This document shows positions 7,315 through 15,076 of a stretch of DNA of 35,053 nucleotides, piece by piece. The translations under genes were made by a program, and so were the position numbers. The stretch spans positions 1 through 35,053 of the forward strand of contig CADBHR010000005.1 in assembly GCA_902794475.1 (NCBI GenBank), read 5' to 3'. A model generated the notes under the pieces. That model worked only from the letters and a program-made list of their open reading frames with translations, made no database searches and was not told where the DNA came from. This DNA comes from an uncultured Methanobrevibacter sp. GTDB lineage: Archaea; Methanobacteriota; Methanobacteria; Methanobacteriales; Methanobacteriaceae. Positions within the stretch are counted from its first letter, which is position 1. Each line of letters opens with the position of its first letter.

Positions 7315-8274
7315 TTATTTTTTTAAGAATTTGAATGTGTTAATTATTAATCTGTATTCGATTTTAAAATAATTTTTCGTATTTTCTGATTTGAATTTGA
7401 CTTTATCTATTTTGCTTCGAGTTGACAGGCCCTCCTTTATACCTGAAATGTATGTAGAACCGAAACCCTTTTTTACGAAAAACAGATATTTTATCAAAAA
7501 TCCCAAAAATAAGAATATGAAATTCACGATTTTCATTGGAATCGGCAGGTTCTTATAAACCACCCATACGTTGTTACGGGCAGCAAGACGAACCTTGAAC
7601 TCGTTATATCTGCTTCCGGATGTTGCAGAGCCAATGTGATATACGATTGCATCAGGACATAGCAGATTCCTGTATCCGTTGATTTTTGACCTTATTGCCA
7701 AATCCACATCTTCCATATATGCAAAAAAGTTATCGTCAAACATTCCAATTTCCGAAAGCAAAGATTTCCTATACATTGCTGCACCTGCACAGGCTGAAAA
7801 GATTTCACAAACTTCTGTGTACTCGCCGGAGCTGTGATTTTCTCCTGTTTTTTTAGTCCAGGCAAGCAGGTTATACTCATCCCCAACATCATCAATCAAT
7901 TCCTTTTTGTCATACTGAAGCATCTTGGCTTGAAGAGAAAAAATATTGTCATCTGAAGACATCAAATCCACTAATGCCTTTATTGAACCTTTTTTGACTT
8001 CAGTATCATTATTTAGAGAAAATATGTATTCATATTTGGCTTTTCTTATTCCTTGATTGACTGCAGGTGAAAATCCAAGATTTTCTGTGTTTTCGATGAG
8101 CTTCACTGGGAATTTGAAAGTGTTATTCTTGATATATTCCCTGCTTCCATCGGATGATCCGTTGTCAACTATGATAACTTCACCGATAAGCTCTGAATCA
8201 TTGTCTAAAGATTCGAAGAATGTTTTTAAAAACCTTTCCCCATTATAATTTGGTGTAACTACAGAAACCTTCAT
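7315..8274 (-). CDS. GT2 glycosyltransferase, WbbL-like
   Basis: A 319-residue GT2 enzyme with MKVSVVTPNYNGERFLKTF at its start, VDNGSSDGS, the DXD-type motif SLNNDTEV, and the block FFAYMEDVDLAIRSKINGYR before a conserved VYHIGSATSG. This set marks the rhamnosyltransferase-like branch. A hydrophobic segment near residues 250-270 (VNFIFLFLGFLIKYLFFV) followed by lysines suggests a membrane-associated tail. An in-frame TTG nine bases upstream exists, but ATG 8274 follows the preceding gene's stop directly (TAGCATG) and gives the normal family N-terminus. Probably adds one sugar of the repeat unit built by the neighbouring enzymes. Confidence 0.9.
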   Translation of the reverse strand: MKVSVVTPNYNGERFLKTFFESLDNDSELIGEVIIVDNGSSDGSREYIKNNTFKFPVKLIENTENLGFSPAVNQGIRKAKYEYIFSLNNDTEVKKGSIKALVDLMSSDDNIFSLQAKMLQYDKKELIDDVGDEYNLLAWTKKTGENHSSGEYTEVCEIFSACAGAAMYRKSLLSEIGMFDDNFFAYMEDVDLAIRSKINGYRNLLCPDAIVYHIGSATSGSRYNEFKVRLAARNNVWVVYKNLPIPMKIVNFIFLFLGFLIKYLFFVKKGFGSTYISGIKEGLSTRSKIDKVKFKSENTKNYFKIEYRLIINTFKFLKK

Positions 8275-8275
8275 G

Positions 8276-9235
8276 CTAATCAATTGAATTTTTTAATTTT
8301 TTCCATGTCTTATAATATAATTTAGGACTTAATAAGAATAATCTTATTTTGGACTTGAATTTGCTGTTCCCTTCATATTTGGATAATTTTGAAAGCAAAT
8401 CAAGCTCTTTCATTTTGCCGATTACTTCATCAAAATCATATCCATTGTAGAAAAAGTAATTCATATTTCCAAATATGGCCTTTGGGATTCTGGAGGTTAT
8501 TATCATTTTGGCTAAGTCATCCCTGCCCTGACTCCTATAAAATTCCGCTAATTTTTCAAAAATATCAACAACCTCAAAGCGCCTGAACTCGGTTGTATTG
8601 ATAGCTGACTGTGAGTGTTGGACATAATAATAAGTTACTTCATTGCTAATGGCAATTTCATCACCAAAAACTAATGTTCTAAGTGCAAAATCAATATCTT
8701 CACCATAAACCAAGTCAGGATTGAATCTTATGCCATTATCATTGACCAGACTGGCCCTATACATTAACTGCCAAAAATTGAATGGCATTTCCATATTCAA
8801 CTCTTTTTTTATAAACTCATCGCAGGACATCAATTCAGCATCAAAATAATGGGGCGAGGATAACTTATCTCCATCCTTTTTAATGAATTGAATCATGCTG
8901 AAATCCGTTTGACCGTTGAATAACTCAGACAAATGATTTTCAGTGACAAAATCATCTGCATCTATGAAAACCAAATAATTACCTTTTGCTACATCAATTC
9001 CACGATTTCTTGCACTGCTTACACCTGAATTTTCCTGATGTATGACATTATATGAAATTGTTGATTCGGACAATTTTTGATTAATGATTTCAAGGCTGTT
9101 ATCTGTTGATCCGTCATCTATGACAATAACTTCAAAACTTTTAAAATCCTGATTAATTATCGAATCGAGTGTTGTGCCTATATACTCTTCACTATTATAA
9201 ACTGGAACGATAACACTAACATCAATATTATCCAT
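8276..9235 (-). CDS. GT2 glycosyltransferase, EpsJ-like
   Basis: This 319-residue enzyme belongs to a different GT2 branch from its two downstream neighbours. It has VSVIVPVYNSEEYIGTTLDS, VIVIDDGSTDNSLEI, the ARNRGIDVAKGNYLVFIDAD core with the DAD metal/nucleotide site, and a later YGEDIDFALR segment. That pattern is common in capsule and exopolysaccharide transferases. The start at ATG 9235 is supported by GAGGG five bases upstream, placed within the end of the previous gene; an upstream ATG (9247) would overlap that gene and lacks such a site. The C-terminus (about 285-319) is basic and amphipathic rather than a full membrane helix. Donor and acceptor unknown. Confidence 0.9.
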   Translation of the reverse strand: MDNIDVSVIVPVYNSEEYIGTTLDSIINQDFKSFEVIVIDDGSTDNSLEIINQKLSESTISYNVIHQENSGVSSARNRGIDVAKGNYLVFIDADDFVTENHLSELFNGQTDFSMIQFIKKDGDKLSSPHYFDAELMSCDEFIKKELNMEMPFNFWQLMYRASLVNDNGIRFNPDLVYGEDIDFALRTLVFGDEIAISNEVTYYYVQHSQSAINTTEFRRFEVVDIFEKLAEFYRSQGRDDLAKMIITSRIPKAIFGNMNYFFYNGYDFDEVIGKMKELDLLSKLSKYEGNSKFKSKIRLFLLSPKLYYKTWKKLKNSID

Positions 9236-10331: not shown

Positions 10332-10613
10332 CTAAGGTAAAAATGCTAGCATTCCAGGAATTGCTCCGGCCATTGCTTGGATACCTAAAATAAAAATTGC
10401 CAATCCACCAATGAAATTGATAATTCTTGCATATTTCATTGCTACTTTTGTACCGAATGTTCCAATAAACAGCCAGCAAAAAACAGCAATAAAACTCAAA
10501 ATAGCCAAACCAACGGGGTCAACATGTGCCGCAACACCCTGAGCTGCCAAAATCAAGTTTTCAATGTTTCCAAAAACTAATAATGGTAAGAAATGCATTA
10601 ATTCAGGATCCAA
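10332..10613 (-). CDS. Three-helix membrane protein, LysE-like half (second of a pair)
   Basis: A 93-residue, very hydrophobic protein with three predicted membrane helices (about 6-28, 36-54, 63-90). It is a paralog of the gene just upstream: from VFGNIENL to QAM I count 44 identical residues of 69 by eye. The pattern (N..L.L..QGV in helix 1, a Gly-rich middle, GG....LG.QAM in helix 3) resembles one half of LysE-superfamily exporters, which are two inverted three-helix repeats. Positive charges lie between helices 2 and 3 (GTK, MKYAR). I favour the TTG at 10613 as start, because AGAGGTGA in the last codons of the previous gene sits five bases before it; a GTG at 10622 would lie inside that site. 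Substrate unknown. Confidence 0.75.
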   Translation of the reverse strand: MDPELMHFLPLLVFGNIENLILAAQGVAAHVDPVGLAILSFIAVFCWLFIGTFGTKVAMKYARIINFIGGLAIFILGIQAMAGAIPGMLAFLP

Positions 10614-10614
10614 T

Positions 10615-10881
10615 CTATTCACCTCTAAATGAAGTAATCATTGCTTGGGCTCCTAAAATGAAAATGGCTAATCCACCAATGAACTCAATAAAACTAACAT
10701 AATCTATAAGCATCTGTGTTCCTAATGTTCCAATTGCCAGCCACATTCCAACACAAATAAAACTTGCAATACCTAATTTAATTGGATTTACGCCTGCTAC
10801 AACCCCTTGTGAAGACAGCACCAAGTTTTCAATATTACCAAAAACAATCAATGCCACAAAAGGTAAATATTGCTCTAACAT
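10615..10881 (-). CDS. Three-helix membrane protein, LysE-like half (first of a pair)
   Basis: An 88-residue membrane protein, first gene of the polysaccharide run, with three helices (about 5-28, 36-56, 62-82) and the same FGNIENLVL, IGTLGT and FIGGLAIFILGAQAM segments as its downstream paralog. Its charge pattern is reversed: a lysine lies in loop 1 (NPIK) and an arginine at the C-terminus, and loop 2 is acidic (Asp). By the positive-inside rule it should sit upside down relative to its partner. The ATG at 10881 has GGTGAT (10886-10891) four bases before it; an ATG at 10893 is also in frame but less well served. The conserved Glu in FGNIENL and the Glu in helix 3 may be functional. No specific role can be assigned. 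Confidence 0.75.
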   Translation of the reverse strand: MLEQYLPFVALIVFGNIENLVLSSQGVVAGVNPIKLGIASFICVGMWLAIGTLGTQMLIDYVSFIEFIGGLAIFILGAQAMITSFRGE

Positions 10882-10937
10882 CCAAATCACCATTTCCCCA
10901 AATAAAATAAATTAACATTATTATTTTATCAAAATTA

Positions 10938-11099: not shown

Positions 11100-12107
11100 C
11101 TATCTATTTGCATACATTTTCTCATAATATTCCTGATACTGTCCACTTTTAACCTGATTTGTCCAATCCTGGTTGTCCAGATACCATTGGATTGTTTCTT
11201 TAATACCGACTTCAAATGTATATTCGGGACTCCAACCCAATTCATCCTGTATTTTACTTGAATCAATAGCGTAACGCCTATCATGACCTAAACGGTCTGT
11301 TACAAATTCAATTAATGACTCATCCTTGCCTAGAGTTTCAAGTATTAGCTTTACAATATAGATATTTTCCTTTTCGTTGTTGCCACCTATATTGTAAACC
11401 TCACCAAGTCTGCCCTCATGCAGAACCAGATCAATGGCCGTACAGTGGTCATGCACATGCAACCAGTCCCTGATGTTTTTCCCGTCACCGTAAACCGGCA
11501 ATTTCTTATCTTCAAGGGTATTTGAAATCATCAGCGGAATCAGTTTTTCAGGGAACTGATAAGGCCCATAATTGTTTGAACACCTTGTAATGTTGATTGG
11601 CAGGTTAAAAGTCTCAAAGTATGCTCTTGTTATTAGATCTCCACCGGCTTTGGAAGCTGAATACGGACTGTTAGGCTGCAAAGGAGTAGTTTCTCTAAAG
11701 TATCCTGTTTTGCCTAAAGTGCCGTAGACTTCATCAGTGGATATCTGTATATACTTTTCAACACCATATTCCTTTGCGGCATTTAAGAGAACCTGTGTAC
11801 CCAACACGTTTGACTTGATGAAGATTTCCGGGTCGGTTATGCTTCTGTCAACATGGCTTTCAGCCGCAAAATTAATGACATACTCACATTTTTTAACTAA
11901 CTCATCAACGACATCCTTATCCCTGATATCGCCTTTAACAAAAGTGTAATTGTCTTTATTTTCAATGTCCTTCAAATTTTCAAGGTTTCCACAATATGTT
12001 AGAGCATCAAGGTTTATAATATGATAATCAGAGTATTTGTTAACCATGTATCTTACAAAATTACTTCCGATGAAACCTGCTCCACCTGTAACTAAAATAT
12101 TTGCCAT
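11100..12107 (-). CDS. rfbB: dTDP-glucose 4,6-dehydratase
   Basis: Second enzyme of dTDP-L-rhamnose synthesis, turning dTDP-glucose into dTDP-4-keto-6-deoxyglucose with bound NAD. The 335-residue protein is a short-chain dehydrogenase-type epimerase/dehydratase with the NAD motif GGAGFIGS (8-15), the catalytic TDE triad in STDEVYG (124-126), and YSASK (Y149, K153). It also has NNYGPYQFPEKLIPL and NIRDWLHVHDHC, which are hallmarks of RmlB. I start at ATG 12107 because GTGAT sits five bases ahead; an in-frame GTG at 12116 lies within that site. It is the last gene of the rhamnose operon, directly after rfbC. Confidence 0.96.
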   Translation of the reverse strand: MANILVTGGAGFIGSNFVRYMVNKYSDYHIINLDALTYCGNLENLKDIENKDNYTFVKGDIRDKDVVDELVKKCEYVINFAAESHVDRSITDPEIFIKSNVLGTQVLLNAAKEYGVEKYIQISTDEVYGTLGKTGYFRETTPLQPNSPYSASKAGGDLITRAYFETFNLPINITRCSNNYGPYQFPEKLIPLMISNTLEDKKLPVYGDGKNIRDWLHVHDHCTAIDLVLHEGRLGEVYNIGGNNEKENIYIVKLILETLGKDESLIEFVTDRLGHDRRYAIDSSKIQDELGWSPEYTFEVGIKETIQWYLDNQDWTNQVKSGQYQEYYEKMYANR

Positions 12108-12115
12108 AAAAATCA

Positions 12116-12682
12116 CTAATATTTAATTTTAGCCTCTTTAAAACTTTTTAATTCCTTATCCTTATCTGATAAAATTATCTCATCAATTCCATCCAGTGGC
12201 CAGTCGATGGCAATGTCTTCATCATCCCATTTTATTCCGCTTTCATCCTCGCCATGATAGAATTCTGTGCATTTATAAAGAAATTCAGCCTCGTCTGACA
12301 ATACCAAAAATCCATGTGCAAATTTAGGAGGAATATAGAGTTGCTTTTTATTTTCCTCGGACAATATTACTCCATGCCATTGTCCATAAGTCGGTGAATC
12401 TCCCCTTAAGTCCACTCCAACATCAAAAACCTCTCCTTTAATAACACGGACCAGTTTACCCTGCGGATACTTTAACTGTAAATGAAGTCCTCTAAGCACA
12501 CCTTTTGTTGATTTTGATTGATTATCCTGAACGAAAGTTAAATCATACCCCGCTTCCTTAAAATCATTTTCCTGAAATGTTTCCATAAAATATCCTCTGC
12601 TGTCCTCAAAGACAGTGGGTTCTACGATAAACATGTCCTTTATTCCAGTTTCTATGAATTTAAATTTTCCCATAATAATCAT
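12116..12682 (-). CDS. rfbC: dTDP-4-dehydrorhamnose 3,5-epimerase
   Basis: Third step of dTDP-L-rhamnose synthesis, a cupin-fold epimerase of 188 residues, the usual RmlC size. Seen: [15 protein letters not shown] near the start, the substrate-binding [15 protein letters not shown] with the catalytic His, [30 protein letters not shown], and FLYKCTEFY with the tyrosine that acts as general acid. The ATG at 12682 overlaps the rfbA stop as ATGA, so translation is probably coupled. A second ATG at 12673 (MGKFKF) fits homologue starts and may be the one used. Confidence 0.95.
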
Positions 12683-13545
12683 CTTTTAGCTAAATTAAAT
12701 AGATATTCTCCATAATCAGTTTTCTTAAGTTCTTCAGCGGTTTTCAATAATTGCTCTTCATCAATGTATCCTTTAAGGTATGAAATCTCTTCAAGGCAAG
12801 CAATATAGAGGCTTTGTCTTTTTTGAACGGTTTCAATGAAATTTGCAGCTTCAAGAAGTCCTTCATGAGTTCCTGTATCAAGCCAGGCCATGCCTCTTCC
12901 TAAAAGTTCCACTTTCAATTTTCCACGATTCAGATATTCCTCATTGACGGAAGTGATTTCAACTTCTCCCCTGTCTGATGGCTTAACGTTTTTAGCTATT
13001 TCAATTACATCATTGTCATAGAAATACAGTCCCGGCACGATATAATTTGATTTAGGTTTTTCCGGCTTTTCTTCTATTGACAGTACATTCCATTCGTCAT
13101 CAAACTCCACAACGCCAAACGCTTCAGGATTATTGGTGTAATAACCGAAAATCACTGCCCCCTCATCAAGGGATGTTGCCCTTTCGAGTATTTCAGTGAA
13201 CCTGTGTCCATGGAATATGTTATCCCCCAAAATTAGCGCGACATTATCATCACCGATGAAGTCTTCGCCTATGATGAACGCTTCGGCAAGACCGTTAGGA
13301 TTTTCCTGAACTGCATATTCAAATCGGATTCCTAAAGATGAACCGTCACCTAAAAGATCCTTATACATCGGCAGGTCCCTTGGAGTAGATATAATCAATA
13401 TTTCCTTAATACCAGCTAGCATCAATACTGAAATGGGATAATAAATCATTGGTTTATCATAAAGTGGCAATAACTGCTTAGAAACCGCCTTTGTAATGGG
13501 ATATAGGCGAGTTCCAGAACCACCTGCAAGCACTATACCTTTCAT
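12679..13545 (-). CDS. rfbA: Glucose-1-phosphate thymidylyltransferase
   Basis: First step of dTDP-L-rhamnose synthesis, joining glucose-1-phosphate and dTTP to dTDP-glucose and pyrophosphate. The 288-residue protein matches RmlA: nucleotide-binding [20 protein letters not shown] at 6-25, [43 protein letters not shown], and [17 protein letters not shown] near the C-terminus. A GTGAT site precedes the ATG. It begins 16 nt after the barstar-like gene, so in this operon rfbA is separated from rfbD by the nuclease-inhibitor pair. Confidence 0.97.
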
Positions 13546-13561
13546 AATATCACTATATACT

Positions 13562-13789
13562 TTATACTATTTTAAACTTTAAAAAATCATTTTCATCAGC
13601 TGCATCTTGAAACGTGCCAATAATGTCAGCACTAACCTCACCAGCATTAACTAGCTCAATTTCACATTCCATCTCACATAAACAATCGTATAATGCGTCA
13701 AGATTCTTTCCATAGTACTCAGGCAAATTCAAAGCATCCTTCAAATAGTCATGACCATCCTTTTTAATCAAATTGCCGTCCAATTGCAT
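13562..13789 (-). CDS. Barstar-family ribonuclease inhibitor
   Basis: A 75-residue acidic protein matching barstar (PF01337). The diagnostic segment [16 protein letters not shown] spans residues 22-37. It holds the equivalents of barstar Tyr29 (Y25 or Y26), Asp35 (D31) and Asp39 (D35), which in Bacillus barstar plug the barnase active site; barstar Trp38 is Tyr here. The rest has the expected alternation of helix and strand and ends in LKFKIV. I start at ATG 13789, one base after the nuclease stop codon, with AAAGAGGT from the end of that gene as its ribosome binding site. A longer in-frame reading to 13894 only re-reads the nuclease gene in another frame. Predicted to stay in the cytoplasm and protect the producer. 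Confidence 0.9.
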
Positions 13790-13790
13790 T

Positions 13791-14243
13791 TTAAACCTCT
13801 TTGAATGTGTTATAGTGGTCGCCAGTGTAATAAACCTTATAGTTTCCAGTATTGTATACAATCCTTTCAGCACCGCGCTGTGTTCCATTTGCATTTATGT
13901 CACATTCTATGTAGTCAGAATTACTGTCTGGAAGCACATGTTGCCTGTTTGTAAATCTGTCTCCACCTATGCTTTTTCCGGGAGCATAATTTTTAAGGGG
14001 TCCCCCATGCCATCCAAGACTTTGAGCTTCCTTTTTTGTTATATAATTACTTGGAAGCTTATGAAACTCCTTAATGTAAGCTGAAACCTCGTCAACAGTG
14101 CAATACTCTCCGTTTTCAACAACACTAACATCGCTTGCATGGTCACCTCCAAAATTAAGAAAGTCAAAAAATCCTGCGCTGACAGCTGAAATGCTGACAA
14201 AAGCGATGAACAATGCAATTATTAAAAATAACTTCTTATTCAT
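13791..14243 (-). CDS. Secreted barnase-family ribonuclease (N1/T1-type)
   Basis: A 150-residue protein with a Sec signal peptide (about 1-23, MNKK, a hydrophobic core, then SAVSAG). A full barnase domain follows (about 45-150) and aligns along its length with Bacillus barnase: HKLPSNYITKKEAQSLGW, APGKSIGGDRFTNR, ECDIN, RGAERIVYNTG, TGDHYNTF. The catalytic and substrate residues are all kept: K70 (barnase K27), R100 (R59), E113 (E73, general base), R123 (R83), R127 (R87) and H143 (H102, general acid). So an active RNA-cleaving enzyme is expected. Its ATG overlaps the rfbD stop as ATGA, and the barstar gene follows after one base. The export signal suggests action outside the cell, as a weapon or scavenger; that use is inference. 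Confidence 0.92.
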   Translation of the reverse strand: MNKKLFLIIALFIAFVSISAVSAGFFDFLNFGGDHASDVSVVENGEYCTVDEVSAYIKEFHKLPSNYITKKEAQSLGWHGGPLKNYAPGKSIGGDRFTNRQHVLPDSNSDYIECDINANGTQRGAERIVYNTGNYKVYYTGDHYNTFKEV

Positions 14244-15076
14244 TTAATCAACTCAATATATTCTTTGATTGCTTCTTTATAACTTCTAAGTGGTTTGAAT
14301 CCTTTTTCTATCCAATTCCTATTTTCCAAAACAGAATAGCTTGGCCTTGGAGCGGGTCTTGCAAACTCAGATGCTGTAACAGGAACCACATTGATGTCCT
14401 TGCCGGCAACCTCAAAAATGTATTTTGCAAACTCACACCAGGAACAGCTGCCGGAATTGGTCAGATGATATATTCCATAATAATCCGTTTCGATCAGCTG
14501 TGAAATTCCGCCCGCCAAATCCGGAGTGTATGTCGGCGTTCCAACCTCATCATATACGACAGTAATTTCTGAGTGGCTTTCAGCAAGTTCAAGCATTGTC
14601 CTTGGGAAATTTTTGCCGTTAACCCCATATAACCATGCAGTCCTAACAATGAAATATTTGTCAAGGATTTCCAGAATTGCCTCTTCTCCCTTAAGCTTGC
14701 TTTTACCATAAACACTTATTGGGCCGATTTCATCATCTTCAACCCATGGCCTGTCATTTTTACCATTGAAAATATAATCTGTGCTTATATGAACAAGGGG
14801 ACAGTCAGCTTCCCTGCAGGCCAGCGCCAAGTTTCGAACGCCCTCTCCGTTGACGGCATATGCAAGGTCCTGATTCTCCTCACAGCCATCGACATCAGTA
14901 TAGGCTGCAGAATTGATGACTATGTCAGGTTTTGCTTCACAAATAAAGTCAATTGTATGATTTTTATCTGTAATATCCAATGTTTTGGAATTTGTTAAGA
15001 TTAAATCATGATTTTTTAAAGCATTGATTAAATCATGCCCCAACATTCCATTAGAACCGGTAATTAGAATTTTCAT
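14240..15076 (-). CDS. rfbD: dTDP-4-dehydrorhamnose reductase
   Basis: Last step of dTDP-L-rhamnose synthesis, NAD(P)H-dependent reduction of the 4-keto sugar. The 278-residue RmlD-type reductase shows the nucleotide motif ITGSNGMLGHDL (5-16), NSAAYTDVDGCE, HISTDYIFNG, and the catalytic YGKSKLKGE. It also shows VRTAWLYG and a C-terminal RPAPRPSYSVLEN typical of the family. First gene of the rhamnose operon, with a GTGAT site before ATG 15076. It shares a 71-nt divergent promoter region with the UDP-ManNAc dehydrogenase gene. Its stop overlaps the start of the secreted nuclease gene. Confidence 0.96.
   Translation of the reverse strand: MKILITGSNGMLGHDLINALKNHDLILTNSKTLDITDKNHTIDFICEAKPDIVINSAAYTDVDGCEENQDLAYAVNGEGVRNLALACREADCPLVHISTDYIFNGKNDRPWVEDDEIGPISVYGKSKLKGEEAILEILDKYFIVRTAWLYGVNGKNFPRTMLELAESHSEITVVYDEVGTPTYTPDLAGGISQLIETDYYGIYHLTNSGSCSWCEFAKYIFEVAGKDINVVPVTASEFARPAPRPSYSVLENRNWIEKGFKPLRSYKEAIKEYIELIK

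Follow-up and report, generated by a model that had tools for sequence, protein, structure and literature searches.

The analysed stretch of DNA, hereafter the window (35,053 nucleotides), makes up contig 5 in a draft assembly of 2.27 Mb from an uncultured Methanobrevibacter sp. Its dTDP-rhamnose operon contains a predicted exported barnase-type ribonuclease followed by a compact barstar. The features of the locus, in window coordinates and with the evidence for each assignment, are the following:

14240..15076 (-), rmlD, dTDP-4-dehydrorhamnose reductase (TIGR01214, E=6e-98, over the cut-off)
13791..14243 (-), predicted exported barnase-type ribonuclease, 150 aa (PF00545, PDB match, AF2 model)
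14175..14243 (-), Sec-type signal peptide of the ribonuclease, residues 1-23, with predicted cleavage between SAVSA and GFFDFL
13794..14099 (-), barnase catalytic domain, residues 49-150, containing K70, R100, E113, R123, R127 and H143
13796..13799 (-), GAGG, Shine-Dalgarno-like site of barstar within the 3' end of barnase (junction sequence)
13562..13789 (-), compact barstar, 75 aa (PF01337, alignments, AF2 model)
12679..13545 (-), rmlA, glucose-1-phosphate thymidylyltransferase, next gene downstream of barstar (TIGR01207, E=4e-148, over the cut-off)
12116..12682 (-), rmlC-like, same operon (ORF; assigned from its position and from orthologues that keep this gene order in relatives)
11100..12107 (-), rmlB-like, same operon (ORF; assigned in the same way as the rmlC-like gene)

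The rmlD and rmlA genes were identified by NCBIfam equivalogs. The junctions are as tight as a preliminary description of this DNA had reported: the barnase ATG (14243-14241) overlaps the TGA of rmlD (rfbD in that description) as ATGA, and the barnase TAA (13793-13791) is separated by one base (A) from the barstar ATG (13789-13787). Beyond the rml genes, two tandem genes that overlap (10332-10622 and 10615-10893, minus strand) encode small hydrophobic proteins with 55% identity to each other; many relatives keep this tandem close to their rml operon, and neither product matched Pfam, NCBIfam or PHROG.

The ribonuclease matched the Pfam barnase profile PF00545 with E=1e-18 and 68 bits (cut-off 24) over profile positions 4-97 of 98, and a sequence search matched it to the PDB barnase 1b21 with E=5e-26. 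When aligned with barnase, K70, R100, E113, R123, R127 and H143 correspond to K27, R59, E73, R83, R87 and H102, which confirms the signal-bearing, catalytically complete barnase described previously. K27, E73, R83 and R87 were invariant in all 69 aligned barnase rows, R59 was kept in 68 of the 69, and H102 was present in every row reaching that position. The AF2 model also matched barnase structures (E 6e-13, rmsd about 1.4 A, TM-score about 0.9 when normalised by target). The residue after the catalytic glutamate is a cysteine (C114, window 13902-13904), which is invariant in archaeal barnases and was found in 51/51 bacterial relatives scored, whereas Bacillus barnase has alanine there. A second cysteine (C48) is common in barnases of the window's genus. 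The GFFDFL motif that follows the signal peptide was considered as a surface tag used throughout the genome; this idea was discarded, as a search of the window's genome found the motif in barnase only.

The barstar was recognised by PF01337 with E=8.3e-13, and its inhibitor-loop aspartates D31 and D35, correctly located in the preliminary description, equal D35 and D39 of known barstar and are invariant in the alignments. A third acidic residue, D62, was invariant in 31 aligned sequences and takes the position of barstar E76, as placed by the alignment. The longest mechanical barstar ORF has 110 aa and begins within barnase, but the 75-aa start is favoured because of the Shine-Dalgarno-like site and the starts of most close relatives. 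This protein has no signal peptide and is predicted to be cytoplasmic. Its AF2 model reached a mean pLDDT of 96.9, and the predicted strand-helix-helix-strand-helix-strand order fits the barstar fold with the helix 3 region absent. Profile alignment to solved barstars stops at residue 40, leaving the C-terminal half unaligned, and a Foldseek search with the model returned no barstar match, although the sensitivity of this search for small proteins is possibly low. In view of these two results, the expectation that the window barstar inhibits its barnase is based on its conserved N-terminal half and on the invariant acidic residues.

Chance origin of the barnase and barstar matches is excluded by the E-values together with conservation in 89 genomes. 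The pair is real and conserved, and its sequence features indicate that it is probably a working ribonuclease and inhibitor. Of 139 genomes searched in the family Methanobacteriaceae, those 89 have barnase, one copy in each, and 87 have barstar, which lies next to barnase on its downstream side and in the same orientation. Three main genera carry the pair in most of their genomes, and a search of 13 further genomes of the phylum yielded no additional barnase. Named barnase records came from Methanobrevibacter, many from the guts of goat, deer and other ruminants, and from Methanosphaera.

The few genomes in which the pair is incomplete were looked at individually. G007 (98% complete) has barnase (L071, 3088-3546) without barstar, and this enzyme carries the only R59 substitution seen (R59E), so it may be attenuated or repurposed. 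The barnase of G072 (L074, about 7889-8439) is broken by an internal stop and an apparent deletion, with an intact barstar downstream; this disruption could be an assembly error. In G084 the barstar was not found and the locus lies at a contig edge. With this genome set aside, every barnase whose active site is complete is accompanied by barstar. The pattern in G007 and G072 is what would be expected of an active ribonuclease that needs inhibition, with draft assemblies allowing for error.

Among the 56 pair-bearing genomes of the window's genus, 55 have rmlD immediately upstream of the pair and in the same orientation, mostly overlapping barnase or within 12 nt of it, and rmlA, rmlC and rmlB follow downstream wherever the contig extends far enough. 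ABC-exporter genes lie between barstar and rmlA in some species of one subclade. The single genome of the genus with the pair away from rmlD, G062 (L212), encodes a barnase 50% identical to that of the window. In a second pair-bearing genus, which we take to be the M. ruminantium type, the pair sits between glycosyltransferase and threonyl-tRNA synthetase genes, and one sampled genome of this genus also has an rml cluster, from which the pair is absent. In the Methanosphaera-type genus the pair occupies yet another site, away from rml. The earlier view that the pair is wired into surface-sugar synthesis, inserted between rfbD and rfbA, thus holds genus-wide but not for G062 or the other genera, and the link to rhamnose synthesis is one of genus level only, because the pair sits elsewhere in those genera. 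The tie to the rhamnose operon is old and stable within one genus and is not required for the existence of the pair.

The history of this tie was followed on a tree of flanking genes. The pair is missing from the early branches of the genus and present in 42 sampled genomes, amongst which G067 and G074 are nested without it; three changes, one gain and two losses, suffice to explain the distribution. In G067, rmlD and rmlA are 166 bp apart, and this gap retains stretches that resemble part of the barnase signal region (GRFFDFLHG) and the end of barstar (ENEFLKFKILY followed by a stop), whereas the 54-bp gap of G074 holds an apparent barstar 3' end. Because these gene scars remain, the two absences are read as deletions, and the possibility that these lineages never acquired the pair was rejected.

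In the barnase tree all archaeal sequences fall into a single clade (support 97), nested among barnases of gut Clostridia that have the same arrangement of exported barnase and barstar. Clostridia and other bacteria lie outside the clade and one Anaerovorax sequence adjoins it; the shortness of the alignment leaves the exact donor uncertain. Most loci of the bacterial relatives have a barstar motif downstream of barnase. These data are best read as a single acquisition of the pair by Methanobacteriaceae from bacteria of the gut Clostridia type, followed by mostly vertical inheritance. A mobile or defence origin was rejected: PADLOC matched neither protein, and searches with the pair gave no match to phages and four weak matches in a plasmid collection.

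A hydrophobic export-type N-terminus was present in all 58 archaeal homologues scored, and it takes three forms: the window's genus has an AxA-like signal (with the AxA-like cleavage site in 36/38 scored members), the ruminantium-type genus and g2 have a lipobox, and the Methanosphaera type has an apparent membrane anchor. Bacterial relatives are mostly of the lipobox type. The retention of export through three designs argues that barnase acts outside the membrane, and the enzyme is presumably secreted in the window's organism. Median dN/dS values, which are rough because dS is near 1, were 0.062 for the barnase catalytic domain, 0.043 for rmlA and 0.107 for rmlD; barstar (0.283) and the post-signal linker of barnase (0.297) were looser. 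The catalytic domain is under strong, housekeeping-like purifying selection.

Amongst known systems, the barnase and barstar of Bacillus amyloliquefaciens share with the window pair an exported guanyl-type RNase fold with the same active site, the barnases being about 45-49% identical in structural alignment, and an intracellular inhibitor with the D35/D39 loop. The window pair differs in being archaeal and co-operonic with rml, in the cysteine in place of alanine after E73, and in a shorter barstar that lacks about 9 residues at helix 3. Phylogenetically nearest to the archaeal proteins are the exported barnases of gut Clostridia, Treponema and Campylobacter, which often carry a lipobox and have the same gene order, an export signal and the ECD motif, but usually have a longer N-terminal linker, whereas the window's genus has a cleavable-type signal. 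Polymorphic toxins with Tox-Barnase tips have the nuclease domain and immunity family in common with the window pair. However, the window barnase is a single-domain protein of 150 aa, conserved across the genus, with no trafficking domain, repeats, cassettes or variable C-terminal tip, and it is not a polymorphic toxin system.

Systems of this kind have been recorded before. One 2012 paper states that a few methanoarchaea have simple barnase-barstar-like systems (PMC3482391), and another lists a putative secreted barnase of Methanosphaera stadtmanae amongst laterally acquired genes (PMC3445992, 2012). These are the same kind of system as the window pair and probably stem from the same ancestral acquisition. 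With these records and its presence in most genomes of three genera, the pair is not unusual in a methanogen, contrary to what had been supposed. The rml-operon insertion, a family-wide survey, loss scars and export variants are not described in the portions of the two papers available, nor were genus-wide lock-in to the rhamnose operon, loss scars or a switch of export mode found in the literature searched. These features are refinements of a well-known kind of system and not a new kind.

The reading we regard as likely is a ribonuclease, secreted or at the surface, that has a guard in the cytoplasm; the pair would have come from gut bacteria in a single acquisition and is fixed within the dTDP-rhamnose operon of the window's genus. 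Barnase would be synthesised with its N-terminal signal, and barstar, whose start codon lies one base beyond the barnase stop, would keep it inactive in the cytoplasm. The enzyme would then be exported and either released or retained at the cell surface, and outside it would cut single-stranded RNA by the barnase mechanism. The sequences show the two homologies, the set of active-site residues, the export signal, the gene order, the conservation and the purifying selection; catalysis, inhibition, secretion and role are predictions. Hydrolysis of RNA around the cell, for nutrients or RNA clearance, has about an even chance of being that role; antagonism of neighbours is possible, if rather unlikely, and any other role has a small chance. 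Scavenging is plausible by analogy with Bacillus. It is weakened by the two families tried: the distribution of nucleobase permeases does not follow that of the pair, and no PF02872 5'-nucleotidase was found in 22 genomes.

An unlikely alternative, in our assessment, is an anti-competitor exotoxin, in which surface-held or released barnase enters or meets damaged neighbour cells and degrades their RNA while barstar protects kin. The toxin-then-immunity gene order agrees with it, being called an incipient toxin-immunity order for simple barnase-barstar pairs in PMC3482391, as do the crowded gut and rumen communities in which the hosts live and the same exported arrangement in the closest bacterial relatives. 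The barnase nevertheless carries neither a delivery domain nor a repeat stalk nor a tag for a secretion system, and it occurs as a single copy per genome with no polymorphism and with the purifying selection noted above. This selection pattern is not decisive, because a broad RNA target needs no diversification. The preliminary description had proposed an anti-competitor or scavenging RNase; the exported enzyme and cytoplasmic inhibitor, encoded in one operon with rmlD and rmlA, are supported, but the selection pattern gives no help to an arms race and the permease and 5'-nucleotidase results give none to scavenging.

Dedication of the pair to the rhamnose polymer, for example as an RNase displayed on or regulated with it, draws on the close and nearly constant presence of rmlD upstream and on the ABC-exporter genes that also lie between barstar and rmlA in one subclade. 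This reading is improbable, given that two other genera have the pair away from rml genes, that rml operons are intact in pair-free relatives, and that operon membership may merely provide steady expression. Still less probable is an intracellular toxin-antitoxin pair serving dormancy or phage defence. The two-gene toxin and antidote layout, and the antidote retained where the toxin is broken (G072), would fit such a pair, but the toxin gene precedes the antidote, the neighbourhoods are chromosomal and housekeeping, the defence, phage and plasmid searches gave next to nothing, and every scored homologue has a predicted export-type N-terminus in one of the three designs. A type II toxin-antitoxin system, with its toxin in the cytoplasm of the producer, was rejected on this last observation.

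In the literature found, methanogen barnases are mentioned merely in passing. The proposition that gut methanogens domesticated an exported RNase of bacteria, together with its immunity protein, as a secreted or surface weapon against neighbours, locked into a surface-polysaccharide operon for most of the genus, is quite doubtful; if true, it would represent an active antagonism route for methanogens in the rumen. Independently of the role, a small bacterial toxin-like pair appears to have moved into methanogens and to have been preserved there under strong selection, through changes in export route and genome position. For the cultured rumen and gut methanogens, it offers a concrete, easily purified protein with which effects on neighbouring microbes or on environmental RNA may be tested.
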